Positions 48,301 to 64,000 of a stretch of 64,000 nt of DNA are shown here, in pieces. Under the pieces are notes generated by a model, which was given only the letters and a program-made list of their open reading frames with translations, was not told the origin of the DNA and did not search any database. Position 1 is the stretch's first letter; every line of letters begins with the position of its first letter. The translations under genes were made by a program, and so were the position numbers. The stretch comes from Ascidia mentula (taxonomy: Eukaryota > Chordata > Ascidiacea > Phlebobranchia > Ascidiidae), in contig OX387204.1 in the NCBI GenBank assembly GCA_947561715.1, positions 9,429,001 to 9,493,000 on the forward strand, read 5' to 3'.

Positions 48301-51300
48301 ACTCTGTGTATGTTGTGGTGTTTTGGGTATTAGATTGATGAAAATCTAATTTCTACTTCATTTTATAATTTTATGCTTGGTTTTTGATATAACAAAGTGT
48401 AGAAAGGTAATATCTTTATCCTGGATTGATCATGTACATTTTTGGTGCATAAATTATTTTAGGTGTGCATTATTCATACTATTTAGGTTTTCAGTAGCAC
48501 ATAAACCACTTTGTTCTCCTCAGGGTATATATTTGCAATTTATTACGATTCCTTAAATATCCATCATATACAGTAGCCATTCTATAAAATTTAACTCATG
48601 TATCTTATGTATAGAATTTCTCTCTGACTTGATTGTGTTGCCAAACCCATCACAACATGATTGGCTTGTGGCGAAAACAATCAATTTCACAATTAGTTTA
48701 ATTTTTTTTTTTCAAAAAGTAACATTTAATAACTTTATTTTAATATTGTCCAGCATAACAATAGAAAACTTCGTGAAATATTAGTAATAAGTTTTGTGTT
48801 TGACAAAAATTTTCTTTCAACAACAAAGTGATGAGATTAAGCCTTGGCAATATAAGAAAGTTCTGCTTTTACATATATTTATTGTTGTTGTTTTCCATTC
48901 TTTTTAATTATTTTTTTATAATTCTACTCAAAGCACACTAAAATGTTTTAAATGACTAATGCGTAACAGAGATACATTTAATACAGAGGTCAGCAAACCA
49001 TTTCACCAGAGCTGAATGCAGATCTTTTCCCCAATGGCCTGGCTCTGCAGAAATGGCAAGCTTAAGTAGGAAAAATTAATAACATACATAAGTAATAATC
49101 ATTAGGTCCATTAGCATTGCGGATTATTAAAAACATATTTAGGCGAAAGCGAATCAGATTTGGCCGAATAAATTTTGTTAAAACATACTCACATCCCACT
49201 AGGCTTTAAAGTGAATTAAAATGCAATTAAACACTTTCTTGTGACCTGTGGGCATTCCCACAGTTAGCCAAGGATTGAAGTGGCTCGGTTTAACACAAAT
49301 ATGAAACATGAAAATGAATAAAGTGTGATTCACTGCTCAATGTGCTTAAGGAATGAACTTTGAGATGGTAATGCTAATTAGGTGTTCAATTTGCAACACA
49401 CAGTGGTGTGAAACTTATTTCTGGTGTGAAAGTATGGCAGTGTACAAACAACATGCTGACATTGTTACATAGAGCAACCGCAGTGAGCAAAACTATAAAA
49501 CAACTTGCATTATTATTGTTGAAAATCGAGGAAAATTTATACTTTCTCAAATGTAATCGTTATAATGAAATAACGATATGAGGCCAAGGTTTTTAATTTT
49601 AAAAAACAGAGGGATGCATATTGGTATTTTTATTGAAATAAGGCGAGAAATGTCCACCTGGAAGTCGTCTGTCACAATAGAAGGAGGACGTCACAAAGCA
49701 ACTAGTGATATATGAGGGTTTATTTTGCAGTTGAGTAAGCATATATACATGCGCTGTTGTTAAGGCGATTTTGAGCCAGTTTCGGGCAGTTTTAGTTTTG
49801 TGCGCTTTGAATAAGGTTGCTACTTGGTGCAGGGTTCTGTAGAAAATTGAACTTTTTGAAATTTATTGCAGTTTAATGCAAGGTTCATCTCTCCTTCACA
49901 CAATAGCATCAAAGCCAGTTGCTGAATAATTGCCTAAGTAACCCCCCCAGGGCTGTATATGCCCCCTGTAGGTCATAAGATCTTCCAGGAGGCTCAACAA
50001 ATCCTTGCTGTGTACTGTGCCATCCAGGAGCAATATTTTTTTAACTTTAAAGAATATTAGGTTCCTATATAAATCACAAGACCCAACAACAGTTATTGGA
50101 AAACAAGCAGAACTTAAAAACAGATATCTTTGGTTTAATTGCCATATAGATCCTTAACCTGCAATTGTACTATCTTCAAACCTTTTCACATCTGAAAAAA
50201 ATGAATCAACAAGTACAAGTCTATGCCAGGTTTAGGATTATAAGGTGGACATGCCTTCATACTAGTGACATTAGCCATTGGCTATGGTCAAGCTTCATGT
50301 CAATATTAGATTTGTGTCACAGTTCTCCGATATAACCTTTCGGCATTCAAGTATGTAAGCATGGTGTAAGGAGTATTTATTATTATTCCGTATTGTCGAA
50401 ATTCATCTGTGCCAAGGTAAAATTAATTACAGTAATATAGATAGACCTTGCATGAACTTGCTTCTGTTTTAACACACTGCTAGAAAGAGATGATGCCTTC
50501 TTTAAGGCGAAATATATTTTTCTGCTATTAAAGCAAAGTTTATATTACTTTTTCAGTCATATACATACACTGTTTACAAAATTCACACATATTGCTATCC
50601 GCCAGCACAAAGCTCTTGCTAATCATGAAATTATTATCACTGCTGATATGCACATTGGTTAAGATTTCAAACAACTATAGAGATACATATACCTTGACAT
50701 GATGGAACAGGATTAGTCCATTCCAAGAAGTTCTCACATTTTGCGAATTCCTCGCCATTTATATCATAACCGGTGTAACAACTAAATGAACACAAACTTC
50801 CTGACTTCATCCCAACTGTGCATGTCATTTGGCCATTGACTGGAGGTTCAATTGTTGTACATTTCCCTTCTGTAATTCCATAAAAAAACAATTGGGTACA
50901 GGAGTTGATCTTATCTCAACAATTGGTCAGAGTAGACTTTATAATCATACATCAGTGTTTGTGTAATTAACTATTGTGCATTAGTGTGCAACTTGTGAGA
51001 TAAGATCAACATTAGTGTACAGAAAAAAACTAACTTGTGGCAACTATGGGCAACACAAGCAGAACAACAAGTTTGGCAAAAAAATTAAATGGGTACCATT
51101 TACATATATTTATCTCTTATTTGTTTGCAAAAAATATCGTTTGCAAACTAGGTAAACATAGAATATATTTATCCACAAAAACAGTTATGTTGTTATGCAC
51201 TTACTTGAACATATTGGATCTTCATTAATGTTCAGCTTCCATATATTACTTTCACAAACTGCTTGTGTAGCACCTGATAGTTCCCAGAAAGTATCACAGG

Positions 51301-51427
51301 AAAATGTAACAACTGATCCAATTTGTGTGCCATTAGTATAAGATGATCGTATAGTGCCCAGGCTTAAAAAAGATGGCGTATATTCAATACAGTCCGCAAA
51401 AGCACCTAAAATTAAAATCAAATCCAT
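42347..51427 (-). CDS. mosaic extracellular protein: nine sushi (CCP) and two von Willebrand A domains
   Basis: Seventeen exons are supported: 51205-51427, 50693-50869, 47354-47530, 46918-47094, 46182-46364, 44899-45084, 44810-44845, 44557-44747, 44281-44500, 44068-44211, 43831-44016, 43583-43774, 43326-43520, 42996-43210, 42709-42937, 42512-42652 and a doubtful last exon 42347-42438, about 987 aa. Each sushi module occupies one phase 1-1 exon with four Cys and a Trp (for example CTDTDFFGSSCKYSCAEGH). Order: six CCP, VWA-1, three CCP, VWA-2. VWA-2 has an intact MIDAS (LIVLDMSGSTTEEN); VWA-1 has Asn for the MIDAS Asp (MILLNGSLPEN) and is probably non-binding. MDLILILGAFA may be the signal peptide, but the same stretch reads as a splice acceptor (AATTTTAG, phase 1), so an upstream exon is possible. 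No protease domain, so this is not factor B. Likely secreted or surface adhesion/immune protein; no named ortholog recognised. Confidence 0.75.
47193..47311. repeat. 49-bp-arm inverted repeat (fold-back) in an intron of the sushi/VWA gene
   Basis: The arm 47193-47241 and the reverse complement of 47263-47311 match at roughly 85 percent of positions; both include GAGTATAAAGAGACT and GTTATTAACACTGTCATGT, with a spacer of about 21 bases. It would form a strong RNA hairpin on either strand. The outer part of the left arm (ATTCTGAG...GGCCCAT) recurs almost exactly, in opposite orientation, at about 42386-42415. Confidence 0.7.
47748..47790. repeat. 22-bp tandem duplication
   Basis: Two adjacent copies of a 22-base unit beginning AAGAACTTAAAGGCTGAATG. 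Perfect apart from the last base, so a recent duplication. Confidence 0.8.
49690..50160. repeat. diverged interspersed repeat, copy 1
   Basis: Shares with 51820-52620, in the same order and orientation, a block around CAAAGCAA...TTGCAGTTGAGT...GCATATATACATG and a block around ATATAAATCACAAG...CAACAGTTATTGG. Family not recognised; middle parts differ in length. Confidence 0.5.
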
Positions 51428-53420
51428 TTTGTTTTGATTAAGAAAACTGCTATTCATAATCCACATAAAAACTATTAAACAAAAACAGTGGTATTGGCAC
51501 CCATGAAACCAATAGGGTTAGACACCCATGTGAAGAGGACCCTTATTAGTCAAGCACCCATGTGAATATAATTTCCTCATGGAGAATCACCGTCTGCTAT
51601 AGAAATGCAGCAGGTTGTATCCTTCAGTCATGATTTTGGTCCATAATTAAGAAGATTTTTGATGAGTTCCATAAAATGAAATTCTTTGCTTAAATGAAAC
51701 TGCCTTGCACACATATTGGTAGAACCAAATCTCCAATGAGGAGTTAAAATTTTAGTAAAAACCTAAGGTGACCAAAATTTAATATTATATTACAAGTTTT
51801 GGGTGGATCACGATATAATGATGATGTAACAAAGCAATCATTGATGTATGGAGGGTCAATTTTACAGTTGAGTGAGCACATGCATGTATGTTTTTTTGTT
51901 TTTTTTAGGTCCCTATTCATGGTTCTGACTTCGCGTCTACAATGGGACTGATGCCACAATACTGCAGGTAAAAATGTTTTTGTTTATGCAAAGCTGAAAT
52001 TTATGAAGAATATAAATATATACCAAGCACCAAAAATTATGTTTAGACGAAAAAAAAGTCTGGAATTAACTGCAACTAGCGTGTCTAGCAGCTGAATTGT
52101 ATTGATGAGCATGTTTAGTGTCTCTTTAGTGGGAAAATTGCCACATATAAAACAAGACTTATAATCAAATTAAAAATGTGTTCGTCAAATTCTCCAGGCC
52201 ACTTTAAAAAGTTTTAACTTAGTTGTATACACTAACAAAAAACATTATAGATAAGCTTTAGTGTTTGTCTGCTGTCAGTTTCCATATGATCAAGTCTATT
52301 CTTCGCAGTAAAAATGCTCTAAACAGCCAAAGTTAAGTCAAGATGTTTTTCTTCGCCGAAGCGGAAATTTTCGTTTTGGGTGCTTGGTGCATAAGTTCTT
52401 CGACAATTTCTGCTATGCCTAAACATAAAATTTTTCCACAAAAAGGATTTAGGGCTATGCAAAGCGTGTTTTTGTAAATAACTCCTATCTAAACCAATGC
52501 ATTTCAGCCACAAATATAAGTCACAAGCCCCAGCAACAGTTATTGGTAAACAGCGCTGCATTATTGCAGAGGACCTTGAAAACACGATTTCTTTTGATTT
52601 ATTTGCCACATATATCTTCATGCAAAAAAAAACAGTATAGTTAGAACAATACCTGCATTTAAGTAAAAAAAAATTAAAAGAAGCAAAAAATTAACAGCCC
52701 ATGAGAGTAGAAAAAACAAATAACTAATTTGTAATTAAAAATTCAATCAAAGAAACTGTTTGTGTCCAGTTTGCAAATTACACCAACCTGATATTGAATG
52801 ACAAAACAACAGGGTCCACAACTCCAAATACATTGTGTATGTCCATGTGTATAATACCCCAAAGTTTCATTCTACAGGTTTCTTTTCGATGTACATCAGT
52901 GTTTTAAAGGATTCAAAACAATTTTGATACAATATTTAATAATGTATATAAAATACAACTTTATGCTTGGGGTTCACAGACCTGAAAATAGTTTCAGAAA
53001 GTATTCTATAATTGAATTCTTTATTTCTATGTAGGTCACCCTATTTTTCTTTAGTTTCATAACATCTTACCAAACATACACAATTTCATGTGTTTTGGTT
53101 GCCAGAATTTTATGAAAGCTGAAGGCCAAACACCCTTGAGTCAACAAAACCAATGTCCTATTTACTATGGGCGGCCAAGCAAAATGGGCCATAAAATATG
53201 TGAATCAAAACACATCAAATTCATGTAAAACATTTTCACTTAAAAGAACCTCTAATGTGAAACAATTTAGTAGAAAGGCCAAACAAAATTTAAGGCCAAG
53301 CAAAACTCAGAAAACAAAATTTTACTTAAAAGAGACCAATAATGGCAACTGGGCTGCCTACTGTTTGCAGTAGTCGTTGCAGCGATTTCGCGCCAATTAT
53401 GCTGTCAGTTTCAATTATAG
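51428..53420. other. repeat-rich spacer upstream of the visible first sushi exon
   Basis: No supported exon. If the sushi/VWA gene has a further 5' exon it should be on the minus strand here or beyond, but no convincing signal-peptide exon was found. The interval holds copy 2 of the interspersed repeat shared with 49690-50160. Confidence 0.4.
51820..52620. repeat. diverged interspersed repeat, copy 2
   Basis: Homologous to 49690-50160 (blocks ACAGTTGAGTGAGCA and ATATAAGTCACAAG...CAACAGTTATTGG). On the minus strand the second block reads LPITVAGACDLYLW, a short open stretch that might be the remains of an element-encoded protein, but no domain was recognised. Confidence 0.5.
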
Positions 53421-53790
53421 GGTTGACATTTAAACCACCTCACGGACGTTTGTTGGAAATATCATTCTTTCTGAACTAAAATAGTTATCAAGGCATTGCA
53501 TAGAGGTATTTTAAAAGCAAGCAAAACATATTCCATCAACGATACGTTTGTTTCGTTCAACACATGCTTCGGCAATGCTACACACGTCCTAAAGTATCAA
53601 AATTCTTGGTCTTTAGGCAAATCTACCAAAAAACAAAATGCTCTTAGTGTGTAACAACGTTTTTGCATAAACGAACTAAATATTAGAGTTATAATGTTGC
53701 AAAGTCTTAGTGAAAACTAATGTTGAGTAGCCACGCAAGAAACGGGGAAGTCCCGTTTCGCCCGTCCGTGAGGTGGTTTAAGTGTTTACC
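53421..53790. mobile_element. MITE with 28-bp terminal inverted repeats and 9-bp target duplication
   Basis: The ends are inverted repeats: GGTTGACATTTAAACCACC... at left and the reverse complement GGTAAACACTTAAACCACC... at right, identical over CACCTCACGGACG. Both sides are flanked by the nine bases CAATTATAG (53412-53420 and 53791-53799). A 9-bp duplication is characteristic of Mutator-like elements. The 370-bp body has no coding capacity, so it is non-autonomous. A perfect sub-terminal hairpin (GAAACGGG, 5-base loop, CCCGTTTC) lies just inside the right inverted repeat. Confidence 0.85.
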
Positions 53791-53873
53791 CAATTATAGC
53801 GCCCCCTTAACGTACGGCACTGCAAGTATAGTGTAGGCATAGAAAACTAAAAGTAAAGTATTCTATGGTGTAT

Positions 53874-53945
53874 GTGTAGAATCCTATAAATTGACTTGTT
53901 CTGGTTCCATACTAATTGCAACTCAAACTCGCTCACTATGTGACA
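53874..53945 (+). repeat. direct repeat, left copy
   Basis: GTAGAATCCTATAAATTGACT followed by a TTCCA...AACTCAAACTCG stretch recurs at about 54374-54450. The pair brackets the BEL/Pao fragment. Confidence 0.6.
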
Positions 53946-53964
53946 AACCACACAGGTTTTTTCT

Positions 53965-54300
53965 TTTTTCTGGCGATGCGGGCCTGTCCTTTGGGTGTAC
54001 GCGCACTTGGTGGAACAGAGCTTCAACGCCAGCTACCAATCGTCCTTCCGGAAGCGAGTCACCACGCCCACCAAGCTGCTCATAGGATCTGGACCCTGCA
54101 TTAACCCATCATTTAACGCGACTCCTTTGCATTTGGTAGCGCAATCGATTACCACACTTTTCCAGCCGTTTCTTTCTCACGTTCACAGTCTACAGGAACG
54201 GCAAAACCCTTGTCAACCGTGCATGGCTGTGATACGAAGGTCTTCATCTTTTAGCAGTCGTCTTTTCAATCTAACAGCTCGTTTTTTCAGCCATCACTCG
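53965..54300 (-). mobile_element. fossil BEL/Pao LTR-retrotransposon fragment (reverse transcriptase start)
   Basis: The minus strand retains recognisable BEL/Pao-type reverse transcriptase words such as ALNDGLMQGPD, SLVGVVTRF and ALFHQVRVHP, in the family's order. Only the beginning of the RT domain is present; gag, protease, integrase and true LTRs are not seen. It is broken, with at least two breaks in this short stretch, hence an old dead copy. Its higher GC content contrasts with the AT-rich surroundings. Direct repeats of about 70 bp lie on both sides (near 53874 and 54374). Confidence 0.75.
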
Positions 54301-54373
54301 ATTGTCGGTCACCTTCGGAGCACCCGGTCTTCATGAAAGTGGAAGTTGAAAATGACCTCTATGGTTGAAACGT

Positions 54374-54450
54374 TGATGTAGAATCCTATAAATTGACTGG
54401 ACCTGTTAGGGTTCCACACCAATCGTAACTAAGTTTAAACTCGATGACCA
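54374..54450 (+). repeat. direct repeat, right copy
   Basis: Second copy of the GTAGAATCCTATAAATTGACT repeat, 500 bp from the first and somewhat diverged (small insertions). Just before it stands GTTGAAACGTTG, a word common at retroelement 3' ends. Confidence 0.6.
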
Positions 54451-55342
54451 TGTGTTTTCTATTCCATCCCAGAACCTGCATGTTGAAGTTACTACTTTAT
54501 TTCATTTGTAACTTATGTTGCAGTACAAATTTATGACATCAATTGAGGGAACCAATCTGGGGGATACAGTTAGAACCATGAACATTTAAGATGTGGTCGG
54601 GACATAGTTATCAGGGACAAAAAGGGAAAAGGACATTTTCTTCAACTCTCGTTTGCAAAGTTGTTTCAAGTAAGTACTAGTCATAAGCAATTTGTAATTT
54701 AATTGAAAAAAACAAACATTTAAAATCATTAGTTATTTGATAAGTAGCATGTTTATTTAAACTAATGTAAACTACATTGTACTTAAGAAAGCTGTCTAGC
54801 TCGCAAACCACAAAGAAACAATTCGAAACATTGAGCAGGAAGTACACGATTTTTGGAAACACTCTGTACAAAGTTGGGGGATCAAACTACCAGGCATGCA
54901 CCTTTTGTATTATATTAAGGCAATCCTGTCTTGGTACAGATACTCTGATAATAATTTGAAAAGGAACCCCGCATGGAATCTTTCATATTTATTTATGTAA
55001 CCCTAGGGGTTCCGCAGAAGTTACTTGGATTTTGGTTTTCATTTAGGCAGCCTATGTTTGCCCAAGTCGTAACCCAAGGCCACCATGTGTAAAGAATTGC
55101 CCTTACATTTTTTAAGTAAGTGGTCCAAATGAACGATGTGTGACTGTACATAAAGGCATGTATAGTTCCCGCTTTGCTGAAATTGTTTTTTTTTTATTTG
55201 TAGAAGAAGAGCACCACTAGCAGCAACAACACCTCATTCGATACGTTTCCTTTAAAAAGTATCATCCGTACTATCATCCGATTTCGATTAATGCAAATAA
55301 AACAAATGAATGATTTGACATACGGCCTTGTGTTGAGTTCGT
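54451..55342. other. spacer, nothing recognised
   Basis: AT-rich sequence between the BEL/Pao fossil and the ACGT-dense patch; no exon, RNA gene or clear repeat recognised. Confidence 0.4.
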
Positions 55343-55612
55343 ATACGTTGTAATAACGTCATTGGAATGGTGCAGACAATAACGTTTTGTTTACGTTATG
55401 TAAACACGTGAAGACGACGAAAGAATGCGTGGTTGTGCTAACGTTTCAATGTTACGTTAAAATTCAACGTTTGCAAAACACTTGGAAATTACGTGATAAA
55501 AAACGTTTTAACAACGTTGATGGTAGTCTACACTTTTACGTCAGAAAAACGTTTTGCATACAACGTCTTATCGTCCTGCAATAACTTTTTATTAACGTTT
55601 ACAAAACGTTAA
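55343..55612. repeat. ACGT-dense degenerate repeat patch
   Basis: About sixteen ACGT tetramers occur in 270 bases, most as AACGTT or TACGT (ATAACGTTTTG, GCTAACGTTTC, AAAAACGTTTT, ATTAACGTTTAC). CpG is otherwise rare nearby. The unit spacing is irregular, so this is a clustered motif rather than a clean tandem array; a MITE interior or methylation-free island are options. Confidence 0.55.
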
Positions 55613-55698
55613 TTTGTTAGCTGGGGTTACCTTAACTGTCGGTATACTACTATGAACGTGAGCCCACCGCCCCCCCTCCTCCAGCACCAACCAAGTAT

Positions 55699-56169
55699 TT
55701 GATTTTTCGACTGCCCTTCCTTTGCCCTGTAAACTATCACATACGGCAAGAATTACGACAATTTATTAACACACGCAGTTTTCTCCCCATCAAACTGCGC
55801 ATGATCCATGATACCACTTCCCTCTCCAAACTCTTCAACTTTAAAGACAAGCAACAGCTTCTCCATCGCTGTAATGTTGTGTACCAACTCACCTGCTCCT
55901 GTGGGGCCACTCACATTGGTGAGACCACACGCAATCTTGCCATTCGCATGAAGAAGCATCATCCCTCAACAAAAGCTGAAAGCGAGGTCAGCAACCATCT
56001 GTGGGGAAATTCGGATCATCAGGTTAAATTCAATTCGCCGAAAGTTCTACACAATTGTTACATAAAATCTAAATTACTGATTCTGCTGGAAACACTTTAC
56101 ATCCAACACCATAAACCAGCACTCAACGTAGATGACAGCTCCAAACCTCTATACCTATTCAACATCTAG
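55699..56169 (+). mobile_element. Penelope-like retroelement fragment: GIY-YIG endonuclease end
   Basis: An open frame of 156 codons ends in a GIY-YIG endonuclease domain of the kind fused to Penelope-like reverse transcriptases: VVYQLTCSCGATHIGETTRN supplies the paired GIY/YIG strands, followed by LAIRMKKHH (Arg), a VSNHL helix and LLETLYIQHHKPALN. The 55 or so residues before it (FINTRSFLPIKLRM) correspond to the linker after RT. The RT itself is absent upstream, so this is a 5'-truncated copy. Within the fragment the frame is intact. Confidence 0.8.
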
Positions 56170-56648
56170 GTCCGTAGTCCGTACTGCAGCCTGACACCAT
56201 AGTATACTATGATTTAACCCAATGCATTTTTCATTTTGCGTACAGTGTTACTCACGCGTGACGAAAAGAATTTCCATTCCATGTTTTAGTATTCTATGAT
56301 AATTGATAAAACAGCTACTGGGACAGGGTGTTATTGTTGTTACTGCATTTATGATCGCTAACGTGATACACGAACTTTTGAAAAAACGACAGAGACAAAC
56401 CGTCAGTTAAGTCGTTTTGTCCACTCACAGCAAAAGATAGAAGTAGGTTTTTGAATTTTGAGGTTGGCAAAGACCGCCGAGAAAGGCCGACCAAATTAGA
56501 TGATGATGCACAGTGATTCTGTCATAGTACCACTTTTTGAGTTCGCGTCATAAATGATTTATTTAGTTCGCCACAATCAACCACTAATGTATTTTTCGCA
56601 ATATAGTTCGTAACTAAAAATGTTGGAATCATCAAATTAAAGCCGACA

Positions 56649-56865
56649 CAAAAGTAAGGATAAAGTTATGACATCACACCCAAAATTACGTCATGTAATG
56701 TCACTGAGAAAAGAAACGCACCATCCCCGTCTTATCGAAGTTCAGAGTAGTGTCGTTGCTGCCATATACCCTTTGGTCTTCCGATAATCAGGGACAAATA
56801 ATCCTTTGGTTTGTGACGTCATAGTGACATATTTTTGTGTGATGTAAAACCTGTCCTTACTTTTG
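56649..56865. mobile_element. MITE-like inverted repeat element, about 217 bp
   Basis: CAAAAGTAAGG at the left end is matched exactly by its reverse complement at the right. The similarity continues inward imperfectly for about 50 bases on each side, including ACATCACAC and TGTCAC/ACGTCA words. No clear target-site duplication was seen and it has no coding capacity. Confidence 0.5.
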
Positions 56866-58252
56866 GGGTAACGCAATCTGTGGATTCTCCTGTGTTTGAA
56901 ACTGTCCGATATCTGCAATATAAGGAGCCTTCTCCTATCTAAACAATGCATTTTTTCGACCCGAGCGCCTTGTGTGATGTCATCTTCGCCACAGCGCAAA
57001 AGGTTTACGATTTTTGGTCGCCGCTACTTTTTGTGCAGTTTTCTACATTTTTTAGTTGACGTAGAACCGAAAAACTTTGGATATATGTTTGAATTGTCCA
57101 CGATGCCGCAGGAGCAAACTGACGTACTCATTTCAACATGCCCTTTTTCTTTTTCCGAATTTGCACCTTTTTTTTGCATCACTTTGTGTCATTTACCTGA
57201 GGAAGCGAGGGTTACTCGCGAAAGCTCGTGTACGTTATAATATACAAGTCATTCTTCTCAAAGAGTGCCAATAAACCAGGACAATTCAGTATCATTTAAA
57301 TAAGTGTACACATGTGTTCGCTAGTTTCTTTGTTGCTGTTGTGCTTTGTGTAGCTATTACGCTGTTTGTTTGGAGTTTGGACAAGATCTCTGTATAATGA
57401 GTGAATTCTTGTGAATTGATTTTCGTCTCTGCTTAAGTAGTGACGGCATAGCTGGGTTTTTTTTTCAGTAAAAAAAATCTGTCAAATGACCGAAATGCCA
57501 GCAAAAATTTAGGACATTTTCAATTTATTTGGGTCATTTTCGATTTAATATTTTCCACCGTCGTCCGCTCGAAAACGATTCGCCGAGAATGATAAAAACG
57601 ACGTCATCAGGGGCAACACAGATTGCATTTTCGCCTAGCGATGAGACGCCCGAAGCACGAATAATCTACTACCAATCAATTCCCTTTGGGACATTGTGTC
57701 CGAAACGGCTTTTATTTTTTGTGACATTTCTAAAAAAATGGGTCAATGACAGACAAATGACACAAAAAAAACCAGCGGCACGGTGACGTAATGTTTTTGG
57801 TGCAACGGATTGGTAACAAAAATATTTGGCTTGTTTTACGTGTCTGTGGTATTGGTAAACAATATTGTTACCAATGGAAATTGTGTGTAACATGCTACAT
57901 ATTGTTCAAAGTGCCTAAAGTGAATGGTAAAGCTTAAAATGTTATTGGTAAGTTATGACTAAATATAACAATGTGTTAATTTCAGGGTATAATAAAATTG
58001 TTTTGTAAAAGTGGTGTTGCTGGAAGAGTTTTATCTTGAAAAATAATCTGCTGCTCCCTCATGTAACAGCACAGACTGTGTGCTGCACAGTTATATGGAT
58101 TTATAAGTTCTCAACTGGGAATTTGTTTTATTTGCACATCCCGTTGGTCTGTTTCATTTTTTAAAATTACCACAATATTATAGATGTTTTTTGTAGTGAA
58201 TTTGACAGCATAATTATTGAAACTGAGAAACAGACCAGTACTTGAATTACGA
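56866..58252. other. spacer and promoter region upstream of MAPKAPK5
   Basis: No supported exon. Near 57197 a CCTGAGGAAGCG...TACTCGCGAAAGC word resembles retroelement tails. At 57851-57875 there is a 25-base near-perfect palindrome (ATTGGTAA...TTACCAAT). The MAPKAPK5 transcription start should lie in the right part. Confidence 0.4.
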
Positions 58253-61200
58253 ATGATGGACGATAGAAGTAGTGATGTCGATGGAAACAATGCATTGGAA
58301 ATCAAAGTACATATTAAAGTGTAAATGTTACATCAAATCAAACCCATATTATTTCTCTAGCATTTAAAAACTATATTGCATTTTAAATACTGAAATTATA
58401 CACTATTAAAAAAGTTTGGCAATGATTAATGTTTTACAAATGCTTTCTCACTGTAACATGATGTTGCCCACAGACATCATCTATCACTGATGATTATGAT
58501 GTAGACTGGAATCAAAAATTGGGAACTGGCATTTCAGGACCAGTTAGAGTTGCAACCAAGAGAAACACTGGAGAAAAATTTGCTATTAAAGTTGTTGTTG
58601 ATAGACCAAAAGCTCAACAGGAGGTTACCTACTGTTTAAGATGCTTGAAAATATGTTGTTATATTCTTATTCATTTTGATTGTTTAGGTTCAGATGCATT
58701 GGAAGTGTGGTGGTCATCCACATGTGGTTACATTGTATGAAGTTTTTAGAAATGATTTACAGTTTCCTGGTGAATCTGAGTCACAATCACGGTTATTGTT
58801 GGTTCTTGAACTGATGGATGGCGGAGAATTGTTTTTTAGGATTAGCAAACAACATGGCTTCACTGAAAGACATGCTGCTGGAACTACAATGCAGGTGGTA
58901 TATAATTGATTTGTGACATCAATGGCATTCCACAAAATATATTGTGAAATCACATGACATATTTTTTATACCTTAGCTCATTTGAGTTATATGTAGTTGT
59001 TTCAACCTAGGCCCACTAACAATAGGATGTAGGACATCAAAGAATGTTTACAAAATTAGTGTGTAAGTGGTTTACTTGCAACTGTTAGCTCATTAGTAGT
59101 TATTGCATGCTGAATTTATTGTAACAACTAACATTTTGTGTAAAATTGGCAGTGTTGCTTCTGTATATAAATATAAGGTTTATGCATGGTGAAAATGTAC
59201 TGTTTAGATTGCAATGGCAGTGCAGCACTTACATCAGAAAAACATTGCCCATCGTGATTTAAAGCCAGAAAATCTTCTTTATAAATCATCTTCTGAAAAC
59301 TCACCTATAAAGCTATGTGACTTCGGTTTTGCAAAATTAGACAAGGGTGATTTGATGACACCACAGTTTACTCCTTATTATGTTTCACCTCAGGTATAGT
59401 TGTGTTTGATAATTAATTAGTTGGAAGTTAATTTGTCAAAGAGAATTATAGTGGCTTTTATCATGCATAACATTGTTTACAGGTACTTGAGGCACAGAGG
59501 AGACATAAGAGGGAAAGAAGCAGCATTAACACAACCATTCCGTATACATATGACAAGGTATGACTATTGTTAAACTAAGTTTAGAATTGTATGTCAATTC
59601 ATGGTAATAGTTGTAACCTGAAAGCCAATCTAGTTGAATGTAACAAATGTTTGATTTGTTTTATCACAAAAGAACTGTCGTTGTGACCGTCATGACATTA
59701 TGGCCTATAAATGTCATTTGTTTTATCTAAGATTGAACCATTGTGACTGAAAGGCATTTTTGTGTGCTTAATATATTTAAAAAGGTATAAACGATTCAGT
59801 ACAATCAAGCAACAGTGGAAATGCATTGTTGTAAACATTTGGTGTGCACTGAGCTTGCCATATAGTATAACAGAGTTACAGATGGCACTACCTACTGCTG
59901 TTTTGTACCGTACATTAAGTGTAGAAATAGGTTTGCTGGAAAAAATGTTTTACATTTACCCTGGCTCTTCTATTCACCCCTGTAAACTATACTCACACCA
60001 AGCTAAAACCATTTACCTGGAAACACTGGGTATCGAAAATTTCACCATATGTTTAGAGCTGTGACATGTGGTCCCTTGGTGTGATTATTTACATTCTAAT
60101 GTGTGGATATCCACCATTTTATTCTGAACATCCTTCATCAAGACGTGCAATAGATAGAAGTATGAGGAGAAAAATTATGAATGGATCTTACAATTTTCCT
60201 GAGAGAGAGTGGGCAAGAGTATCTGACAGGGCCAAAGATGTGGTAAAAAGGTAAAATACTATAAAAAAAATAAATGTGTCAGTTCTACACTTTTTTCAAA
60301 ACAAGGTTGCTGTGTGTTGATCCACATGAACGTATGTCAATCGAGGATTTAGTTAAACACGCATGGCTAACTGAGGAGGCTCCAAACACATTGCTACAAT
60401 CCCCTATATATATGGCAAATAAGGTATATATTTTCATCAAATTGTTTAAATACATTTTAATCATACTGTCTAAATTCATGCTCAGGCATGCACCACAACT
60501 GGGGATGGGTAATACAGAATAACAAACTTGGAGGATTTAAATCCCAAAGTATTGGAATTCAAATGAAACAATAGGATTTGGTTTATAACTTTCTTGCAAG
60601 TTTTGATTGGTCTCATATTTTCTTTTTGTCAATCGCATCTCGCAAAAAATAGGCACACACACTGACATTATTTGTTCATCTGCCATGGCTTAAAAAAAAT
60701 ATTGGCTGTGCGATCTAAAATTGGCATGTGCTAAACTTGCTTTTGTGCAATAAAAACATGGAATTAAATAATATAGAATGCCAGAAACAAATAAGATTTA
60801 CCAACATGGTGTGGTCTTCAACATATGTGCGAATGTTATGAGTATGCAACAGAAAATAAGGCAATACCAATACACCCACAACAGGATAGGATTCTGTATT
60901 TTGTGTCAGATTTAACTATTCTGGATACGTGTGTTTTTCTGTATTGTCCATCCATAACCACTGCTACCCCCTATCAACCTTTTTCTAAAAAATTGTTCAC
61001 CTGAATAACCTGTGTACTGGACACATTCTGTTTTCTGTAAAATATATGCAATTACAGACTAACTTACAAGAGGTGGCTGCATTGCACGAGTCTCACCTTC
61101 GCAAAATGCGGATAACTGAACGACCTGTGGACCTCAAGCCGTTTGATTCTGTCATTAACCCAATTTTGGTCAGAAGACAACAGCTAAGCAGGTAGGACAA

Positions 61201-61608
61201 TGTTTTGCTGAAGTAGAATTTTTTGACAAATGTTAAGTTTTTAGACAAGGAGAAAACAGAATTTCTTGTCAAACACCAGTAGATGATCCTACTACAGTAG
61301 AGTCCCTAAGAGGTGTAATCGCAGCATGTATATTTCCTCTTCCTGACAGCGAACAAAACAGAGAGGCATTGGAGGATGCTATCAAAATAGCACTTAAGGA
61401 AAATGAAAGCAATCCATCACTAAAAGAGGTTTACAACCGATTGTCAAAAATTATTTACCACAATTATTTACAATACCACAATTTTCCAATTTAGTTGGTT
61501 GATAAATATTCTTGGAATGGAAATCATTTTGATGATCATGTGGATTTAAACACAATGTCACATGGAGTAAAAGAAATACTTTTAATGATGAACAACCAGC
61601 AAGTGTAA
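58253..61608 (+). CDS. MAPKAPK5: MAP kinase-activated protein kinase 5 (PRAK)
   Basis: Serine/threonine kinase downstream of p38 and ERK3/4 MAP kinases. Ten exons: 58253-58306, 58474-58623, 58688-58894, 59208-59393, 59483-59557, 60057-60250, 60306-60423, 61058-61191, 61245-61428 and 61495-61608, giving 471 aa (human 473). Kinase landmarks: [11 protein letters not shown] glycine loop, [12 protein letters not shown] (Lys), [20 protein letters not shown], and the activation segment [16 protein letters not shown] with the MAPK-phosphorylated Thr of [15 protein letters not shown] and [20 protein letters not shown] are diagnostic of PRAK. The C-terminal part keeps the VNNPIL-like [10 protein letters not shown] block (basic, NLS position), the [10 protein letters not shown] helix and DKYSWNG...HVD, which align with the ERK3/4-docking end of human MAPKAPK5. 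Two in-frame ATGs open the gene (58253, 58256). It converges with AARS2; the stops are 202 bp apart. Confidence 0.95.
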
Positions 61609-61810
61609 TGTGTTTGTTGATTAATGTTTTATTCAGTTTTGTCTGACAGCACTGTGAAACATACTTGTTTTACGGTGCTTTTGGTATTTTTATCTGTAAA
61701 TTACTAAATTACAAAAAAAATGTGAATGTTGCATTTGAAATTCAAAAAGAGTTTTCACCAGGTACACAAAAGTTATTGTTTCATGACAAAAAGCTCTGCT
61801 GATAATTTTG

Positions 61811-64000
61811 TTACAAATCAATTACTCTTGTTTTATCTGCTGATGAATATTGTAATCTGAGGCTTCTTGAAAGATTTTGTAATGTGGTCCTGTAGTTTTC
61901 CTTTGCATCGAATGAAATTTCTTCAGAATTTAGACGGTATTTTAACACTCCAATGGTCTTGATTGCTGCCAATATGTTTTCTGGTTCCAAATTTTTGTTA
62001 TTTGCAAGGGTAACTATTTGGCTAATTTCCATCTGCAAAAAGGCAAAGTTAAAAACCACCTAATGGGATGATATAATTTTACCTGAATTTGCTTAGTTTT
62101 TTCCAATGCATCCTTAGCTCGACTGCCTGTTAGAGCATGCAGAACTGTTTTTGCTTTGCCTTGATGGTTTACTTTGGTAATGCACAGTTCACTGCAAAAA
62201 CAAACAAATTTTCTCTATAAACATAACAAAATTATAACCATAAACCTTATCGTATAACAGAACATAAATTTTACAAAAAATTAGCAACTAAATTTACCAT
62301 TCAACCAAAGAATATTGATCTTGTTCAGCTGTTTGCTTTGTTGTGTTACAAAGTTTAATAATGTCACTTGATGTATAATATCCAGCTATTTCTACAATGA
62401 ACTTGTTGAATTTTGTTCTTGATTTCAGAATTACTGCAGTTTTCCACAAATGTCTGTAACAAACATCACCCACTTTACATTGAAACAAAGGCAATACAAA
62501 GCAGCATAAAACCTGAGTGTGTTGCTTAACACATCGCAAAATACATATGCACAGTTTGCTGACTTCCACCGCTCTTTATCAATGTTTATTATAAAAGGTT
62601 GGCCAATAGTTATTGTGGACAGGGTAGGTAATGACTCTGATGGTAAAAGTTGGTACATTGACCATGCACTAATGTCATGTGTTTGTGCAATTGGGTATTT
62701 CTGTGAAAAAATAGAAGCTTATGTTAACCATGTCACTTAAATTATGCATTTCTTTACAATTACCATTTCTTCCACTTCCAAAGACAACATATCTGACACA
62801 AGATGTTTACTCTGACTACAATCAAATGATTTATCAAACAGAATATAAACAGGATTACATTTTGAATTCCATTGATATTTCTTTGTTTCCACTACACCAC
62901 TGTTTGAAATAATTGCAACACAGTTTGCTGAAATCCGACTTTCTGTAATTTACAAACATACAACTAATCAATGACAACACTTATGCTTGTCATAAAATTG
63001 ATCAAACCTTTCGAACTTGGGACTGCAACCAGTTCAGTTTTTGGAACTTTTAGGTCATGCAAATGTTTTTCCACCTTCAATAAATTGATGTCTATTGTTT
63101 TGTTGTCTTGCTTGATATTTTTAATTTTTTCCTGTTTTTTTGGTTCTATAAGTCTGGAGACAAATAGTTATTTGGGTAAATTTTATAACTGTTGTAAAAT
63201 ATGTAACAACATAAACAAACTTTTTCAACTCATTGTTGTCAAAAGTTAAATTGTTGTGAAAAGCATGATTTTTGATGTATTCCAGTGGATATCCATTGTG
63301 CAAAATTTTGGCCATTTTTCTTACTGGAAATAAAAATGTATTATGTTTACATGATCTTTTTTAATTACAAGCCACAAATAAAGATGTCTTACCCCATTAC
63401 TTTCTACATACAATAACCACAATCTAAAGACCACTGATCTAGGAATGTACCTGGAAACATTTCCCCTGGGTTAAGCTTGGAAACTTCTTTTTTTATCACT
63501 TCATTGCCCTTGTCAATTATGTCATAAAATTCTCTTTCTGCTTCATCTATGACTTCCATTATAAGGTGCTGCTTGCTCTTAAGTCCAGGATAGCTGCAAG
63601 CCTAAACCACATATTATGTTCAACAGCATGTTGGTAATACTAAGTCATGTATTTCGCTTACTAGAGATGTAACAACAGCAGGCACCAAACTGGACAGAAA
63701 CATGCGTGGTGCTTCCAGAGTTTCAATTCCAGATCTTACTGCCCGCCGCAACACCTAAATACAAACATATTGTATCCTTAAAATCACTAATAACAACAAA
63801 AAACACATCCTGTATGAGCCATGAAATTGGGAACTATCTCTAAAACTGGTGTACAGTTTTTGGTTTAGGACACGTTTGCATTTAATTTGCGCAACTTTTG
63901 CTTTATTTTATCGGTTTAAAAATTAAGTGATTTCCATCAGACCAAGTTTGATATTGATTTTAATTTACTTGCTTTAAGCTTGATTCAGGAATATCAAAAA
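61811..64000 (-). CDS. AARS2: mitochondrial alanyl-tRNA synthetase, C-terminal part, with degenerate editing domain
   Basis: Nine exons read into the window from the right: 63662-63754, 63451-63601, 63221-63323, 63008-63153, 62764-62942, 62513-62700, 62298-62453, 62083-62191 and 61811-62032, giving 448 aa to the stop; a further exon may end at 63969. The first two exons match the end of the AlaRS aminoacylation domain: LRRAVRSGIETLEAPRMFLS, LVPAVV, YPGLKSK and EREFYDII, then the mitochondrial-type PGEMFP. Downstream alignment to human AARS2 is weak but colinear: ILFDKSF for LLDRTNF, IGQPFIINIDKERW for the GDQV...VDEAWR region, and LHALTGSRAKDALEKTKQI for LLAVTGEQAQQA. The editing-site HxxxH (HTATH in human) is replaced by ANCAYVFCD, the CxGTH motif is absent, and the C-terminal C-Ala domain is missing: the chain stops about 85 residues after ALTG. 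The fold is kept but proofreading is probably lost. Confidence 0.85.

Follow-up and report, generated by a model that had tools for sequence, protein, structure and literature searches.

An ascidian alanyl-tRNA synthetase, probably mitochondrial, that appears to have lost its editing domain

Introduction

Can an animal mitochondrion be served by an alanyl-tRNA synthetase (AlaRS) that no longer proofreads its own product? AlaRS is the textbook case here, its serine errors being held unavoidable. The question is raised by a gene at the end of a 64,000-nucleotide stretch of Ascidia mentula DNA (G000:C72:9429001-9493000, hereafter the window), taken from an assembly of 195.8 Mb in 79 contigs. A first-pass annotation of the window had described a mitochondrial AlaRS without the metal site of its editing domain and without C-Ala. 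We consider it likely that the gene encodes a working AlaRS, most likely mitochondrial, that has lost post-transfer editing in cis, with C-Ala cut to a helical stub and with errors that would be cleared in trans or tolerated.

Results

The AlaRS gene and its catalytic part

From sequence alone, in this one genome, we read an AlaRS gene of 15 coding exons that encodes a protein of 798 residues. The window carries its last nine exons (x1 to x9) on the minus strand, from 63754 down to 61811; the introns between them are of the GT-AG type and 50-127 bases long, and the last exon closes with a TAA stop at 61811-61813. The interval 61811-62942 of the minus strand, to which the first-pass annotation had assigned the gene, corresponds exactly to its last five exons, x5 to x9, joined across GT-AG introns; as a gene it is incomplete in the window, since its other six coding exons are upstream, past base 64000, in the flanking locus L009 (window-equivalent positions 64040-64201, 64643-64787, 64853-65047, 65233-65378, 65687-65875 and 66037-66249, with borders set by eye). 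The model frame is stop-free in all nine window exons and is the best of six by codon score, which also penalises stops in the competing frames, in eight of them. Only in exon x6 does one antisense frame come out ahead, at 0.01, with the model frame at -0.04.

As references we used the cytosolic-type AlaRS of the same genome, the E. coli enzyme and a set of 80 bacterial AlaRS loci retained from 592 confirmed ones. A column counted as invariant if at least 95% of these bacteria agreed and the cytosolic enzyme had the same residue. PF01411 matches residues 32-529 of the 798-residue protein with 466.6 bits (model positions 1-473 of 552). TIGR00344 matches residues 32-534 with 445.7 bits, under its cut-off of 457.05, and covers model positions 1-475 of 847; the same model spans the cytosolic AlaRS end to end. 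Measured against the bacterial and cytosolic set, 76 of 86 invariants are kept in the catalytic part and 23 of 41 in the tRNA-recognition part, the ten altered catalytic positions including D175E beside the MGDTGPCGPC motif. Catalytic-part identity to E. coli is 133 of 246 aligned residues, close to the 135 of 244 of the cytosolic enzyme, and the eleven E. coli positions that we checked individually (70, 88, 93, 171, 215, 217, 218, 230, 236, 238 and 240) are unchanged.

Domain profiles were built from 81 sequences (of 82, one gappy sequence having been removed). The 798-residue protein scores 304 bits with the catalytic profile, 90 with the recognition profile, -1.3 with the editing profile and -4.5 with the C-Ala profile. 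The corresponding values for the cytosolic AlaRS are 338, 202, 260 and 104 bits, but this enzyme is part of the training set, so that only the scores of the 798-residue protein are independent. Shuffle tests, with 500 shuffles each against the genome's own cytosolic AlaRS and against E. coli AlaRS, agree with the profiles over the first half of the protein: against the cytosolic enzyme, residues 1-270 reach z = 133 and residues 271-455 reach z = 53. The tRNA-recognition domain, which ends in exons x1 (63662..63754, minus; residues 351-381, VLRRAVRSG..., from the GT-AG model and PF01411), x2 (63451..63601, minus; residues 382-432) and x3 (63221..63323, minus; residues 432-466), thus appears to be kept but diverged. 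With its catalytic core preserved, the 798-residue enzyme can be expected to charge alanine.

A second AlaRS locus and the mitochondrial tRNA-Ala

A PF01411 search of the 196-Mb genome gave seven matches among the scored candidates, which belong to two AlaRS loci. The first-pass annotation had also considered that this gene might be a pseudogene beside an intact mitochondrial AlaRS; no such second gene is present among the scored candidates of the PF01411 search, with the proviso that our genome searches score only the best first-look candidates and could miss a very diverged copy. Searching the genome with the window part of the protein returned its own exons and, weakly, the cytosolic AlaRS gene, and a DHHA1 search returned the cytosolic AlaRS only, again among scored candidates. 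This cytosolic-type gene has no introns and spans 967 codons in one frame (L010:2047-4950, on the same contig as the window); its product carries C-Ala and the full set of editing motifs.

The 798-residue protein has about 28 residues ahead of its first conserved segment, and its first 39 residues hold seven K/R and two D/E, with a helical moment of 0.39. As the sole AlaRS besides the cytosolic-type enzyme, and with a basic N-terminal extension, it is probably mitochondrial.

COX1 matches the genome at one place only, on a mitochondrial contig of 19,461 bases (L016 and L017, G000:C79), which is long for a tunicate mitochondrial contig. Read with code 13, AGG falls at glycines of the COX1 blocks GGFGNWL, DPGGGGDP and GSGAGTGWT, and TGA at a tryptophan; the contig uses the ascidian mitochondrial code, which marks the animal as a tunicate. 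ARAGORN found 15 tRNAs on it in metazoan mode, including one tRNA-Ala, and no tRNA at all in default mode. This tRNA-Ala(UGC), at contig positions 3405-3481, has A1-U72, A2-U71, G3:U70 and C73. The G3:U70 pair has been lost in 20 of 24 bilaterian phyla, chordates included, and kept in nematodes among others, according to the available part of a survey (PMC7033119) that excluded some tunicate tRNAs as too divergent.

At the two positions where AlaRS reads G3:U70, the 798-residue enzyme has changed. The Asn position is L (S in the cytosolic AlaRS, within RPDSTGRG), and the Asp position, which falls in exon x3, is H or, depending on the alignment, N (D in the cytosolic AlaRS). The 798-residue enzyme may therefore not itself read the pair. 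The retained pair would suit recognition by AlaX-type enzymes, going by the portion of PMC11415595 available to us, and would also suit a cytosolic-type AlaRS.

These observations bear on an alternative in which the gene is decaying or has taken on a non-translational role while mitochondria import the cytosolic-type AlaRS, which still edits. The imported enzyme would find in the mitochondrial tRNA-Ala a G3:U70 that it could read, and the 798-residue enzyme has lost the residues at the reading positions. Decay or another role is nevertheless hard to reconcile with the 76 conserved catalytic invariants and an open frame of 15 exons, and only eight codons are open upstream of the start of the cytosolic AlaRS in its own frame, so that no targeting sequence is visible there. 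We regard this alternative as unlikely.

The editing-domain region

We favour instead a functional, most likely mitochondrial enzyme whose own editing site is gone. The expected editing-domain stretch begins in exon x4 (63008..63153, minus; residues 466-515), which has no detectable similarity, and continues through exon x5 (62764..62942, minus; residues 515-574) at the place of the editing barrel. Exon x6 (62513..62700, minus; residues 575-637) follows, then exon x7 (62298..62453, minus; residues 637-689), a shortened remainder of the SAD part, and exon x8 (62083..62191, minus; residues 689-725), which reads CELC without GGTH and then LTGSRA. As the first-pass annotation had claimed, HxxxH and CxxxH are absent throughout the spliced sequence, in which the frame is open; CAYVFCD, in exon x6, stands at the expected HxxxH position, and SFDCSQSKH, in exon x5, at the expected FYAEQGGQ block. 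In the alignment, E. coli H564 falls on Y, H568 on D, H670 on a gap and C666 on Cys, but this stretch, including the Cys, is aligned without significant similarity, so that the exact ligand columns are soft. In the bacterial reference, 79 of 80 sequences have the ligand at each of these columns, with one gap each.

Invariant columns give the same picture, with none of 16 kept in the barrel and 7 of 39 in the SAD part. Against the cytosolic AlaRS, shuffled sequences often match the observed score: residues 456-560 reach z = 1.0 (85 of 500 shuffles at or above the score), residues 641-720 z = 0.3 (185 of 500) and the whole stretch 456-720 z = 0.5 (147 of 500). Of the two flanking landmarks that the first-pass annotation had recognised, GQPF...DKERW stays at chance level in this test (residues 561-640, z = 0.6 with 134 of 500 against the cytosolic enzyme and z = -0.6 against E. 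coli), whereas ALTGSRA stands (residues 700-760, z = 4.9 with 0 of 500 against the cytosolic enzyme and z = 3.3 with 3 of 500 against E. coli). LTGSRA and the helix that follows it are the recognisable last segment of the editing domain. When residues 456-720 were set against the editing profile in a profile-profile comparison, the probability was 0.1%, no different from that of three shuffled copies (0.1 to 0.2%). Pfam tRNA_SAD and DHHA1 are both found in the cytosolic AlaRS and neither in the 798-residue protein, where PF07973 (tRNA_SAD) has no match up to E 1. Since residues 1-270 of the same protein reach z = 133, the loss here exceeds general divergence.

The editing domain thus appears decayed beyond recognition, its similarity being at the level of shuffled sequences, and loss of editing in cis by the 798-residue enzyme is strongly supported at the level of the predicted protein. 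It is quite unlikely, in our view, that this diverged region retains an editing fold and clears misattached amino acids at a different, metal-free site. Such a site could be housed in the roughly 250 residues that still occupy the editing-domain position, where the last segment LTGSRA remains recognisable and R575 (E. coli numbering) is kept; the near absence of barrel and SAD invariants, a three-way alignment with 67 gapped columns in its SAD part and a similarity that shuffling reproduces all speak against it.

A six-frame search for missing exons used barrel, SAD, editing, C-Ala and catalytic profiles on 1264 segments from window positions 50001-64000 and L009; the same profiles do recover the cytosolic AlaRS gene, a member of their training set. 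Exons restoring HxxxH and CxxxH, which the first-pass annotation had named as evidence against its reading, were not found in this interval, where the editing profiles reach no better than E 2.8. That value belongs to a segment at 61636-61689 (minus; SAD E 3.3), which we rejected as an alternative editing exon because it is at chance level and its 18 residues lie downstream of the stop. A candidate C-Ala exon at 55357-55581 (plus; E 3.9) was likewise at chance level, as were two hits of the catalytic profile away from the known exons, one at 56704-56787 (minus; E 0.17) and one in L009 (E 2.4), and the barrel profile matched no segment outside the known exons of the same search space. PF07973 had no match at the 798-residue AlaRS locus in the genome search either. 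Although the gene model comes from sequence alone, introns of just 50-127 bases in the window, this chance-level result in 1264 segments and the missing PF07973 match make it very improbable that an intact editing domain is masked by misassembly or by exons that were missed or are used alternatively.

A helical remnant of C-Ala

The statement that C-Ala is gone needs qualification. Its globular part with the GG motif is absent, and about 75 residues weakly like its helical part remain, most of them in exon x9 (61811..62032, minus; residues 726-798 and the TAA). A weak match to the helical beginning of cytosolic C-Ala covers residues 722-792; in the shuffle test, segment 721-798 reaches z = 3.4 (8 of 500) against the cytosolic enzyme and z = 1.0 (83 of 500) against E. 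coli. One of eight C-Ala invariants is kept, and PF02272 (DHHA1) has no match in the 798-residue protein, which ends after the helical stub.

Candidates for compensation

Mice whose Aars2 is defective in editing do not survive embryonic development (PMC10234152, as far as its available text goes), so that loss of AlaRS editing plausibly needs compensation. One route would be a catalytic site that excludes serine. L219M stops serine use in a Methylomonas AlaRS mutant, as described in the accessible part of PMC12143591, and we mapped L219M and V204 to E. coli L230 and V215 through neighbouring residues named there. Both positions are unchanged in the 798-residue AlaRS; we therefore rejected built-in serine exclusion, and serine mischarging is expected unless prevented otherwise.

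A second route is editing in trans. In the genome search, PF07973 exceeded its cut-off at three places among scored candidates, namely the cytosolic AlaRS, a ThrRS-like gene and an AARSD1-like gene. The free-standing AlaX/AARSD1 protein proposed by the first-pass annotation is thus represented by a gene with both metal motifs; its mitochondrial import is only suggested. The AARSD1-like gene (G000:C70) reads HSSQH in joined exons and MCCGTH in an open frame, and its first 155 residues match NF040865 with E 1.9e-23 and 83.4 bits (cut-off 300), the gene being partly assembled. Ahead of the conserved start the frame stays open, and an in-frame ATG there (L018:1016-1132) adds 39 residues that include six K/R, lack D/E altogether and have a helical moment of 0.44. 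As a control, 14 of 365 open 39-codon ATG stretches in the window are acid-free with at least six K/R, and 4 of the 14 also reach this moment. Of 40,000 anchors placed at random, 7.1% would gain 30 or more residues from an upstream ATG in the same frame; for 0.22% the gained stretch is also acid-free with at least six K/R. A pyrimidine tract ending in AG, a possible splice acceptor, lies just before the second ATG, so that the extension may be untranslated. The second ATG has a stronger start context than the upstream one.

The extension and the mitochondrial G3:U70 are, at this level, suggestive as signs of compensation. It is possible, though we hold it only tentatively, that in this tunicate lineage mitochondrial alanine proofreading has moved to the free-standing AARSD1, which would have acquired a mitochondrial form by way of the upstream in-frame start and would read the retained G3:U70, leaving the AlaRS editing domain and C-Ala free to decay. 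Under our preferred reading more broadly, the 798-residue AlaRS would be expressed, imported into mitochondria and charge alanine there, and it would also mischarge serine and glycine. These errors would be cleared in trans, the form of AARSD1 with the targeting-like N-terminal extension being the first candidate, or else tolerated. In eleven roughly outlined mitochondrial frames, 173 of 3584 residues are alanine, so that tolerance would touch about 5% of positions. ANKRD16 is termed vertebrate-specific in the available portion of PMC7373986. A literature search, with most subscription journals outside its scope, found no paper on AARSD1 in mitochondria.

Comparison with known synthetases

The literature below is cited from the portions of each paper available to us. 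Like human and mouse AARS2, the 798-residue enzyme is a second, probably mitochondrial animal AlaRS in which the G3:U70-reading pair is replaced (Met343/Gly444 in the human mitochondrial enzyme, PMC7033119). AARS2 edits, however, and its C749A and V760E forms are editing-defective and lethal in mice (PMC10234152, PMC6451123), whereas no editing motifs are present here. C-Ala is central to tRNA recognition by human mitochondrial AlaRS (PMC7033119), and its globular part is absent from the ascidian protein. The mitochondrial AlaRS of C. elegans offers a closer parallel in that its C-Ala is trimmed to a short helical piece of 54 residues (PMC10485164), and nematodes have a mitochondrial tRNA-Ala with G3:U70 (PMC7033119). 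Retained G3:U70 and trimmed C-Ala, which co-occur in nematodes, are thus joined here as well. The nematode enzyme is, however, drawn with a prototype editing domain, and what is accessible of that paper reports no editing loss (PMC10485164); in the ascidian protein the domain is unrecognisable.

Editing has also been lost naturally in a eukaryote through truncation of the editing domain in microsporidian synthetases (PMC11415595, PMC7373986), but these are cytosolic enzymes of parasites, and ours is a probably mitochondrial enzyme of a free-living type of animal. Mitochondrial PheRS is likewise a mitochondrial synthetase without editing, for which higher specificity compensates (PMC11415595); the known serine-excluding change is absent here. 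Charging and editing lie on separate genes in the alaS/alaXp fission of Portiera, which differs in being a bacterial endosymbiont whose alaXp derives from its own alaS (PMC5322561). Our literature search, most subscription journals lying outside its scope, found no report of editing loss in an animal mitochondrial AlaRS and no paper on tunicate AARS2. If a chordate mitochondrial AlaRS does lack an editing site, then either editing in trans can replace it or serine and glycine at alanine codons are tolerated, and both outcomes are directly testable.

Other observations at these loci

A fourth tRNA_SAD match (L014, G000:C2:11805043-11805147; 18.2 bits, E 0.61) lies below the cut-off. The tRNA_SAD search contained one ThrRS-like gene with an editing domain (L012, G000:C69), so that the cytosolic and mitochondrial ThrRS may share it. 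Rfam found 0 families in the window. The 798-residue AlaRS gene is intron-rich, unlike the cytosolic-type gene. It stands tail to tail with a plus-strand gene at about 58250-61608 of the window, which we take from its motifs to be a MAPKAPK5-like kinase gene and whose final frame ends at 61608, some 200 bases away from the AlaRS stop at 61811.
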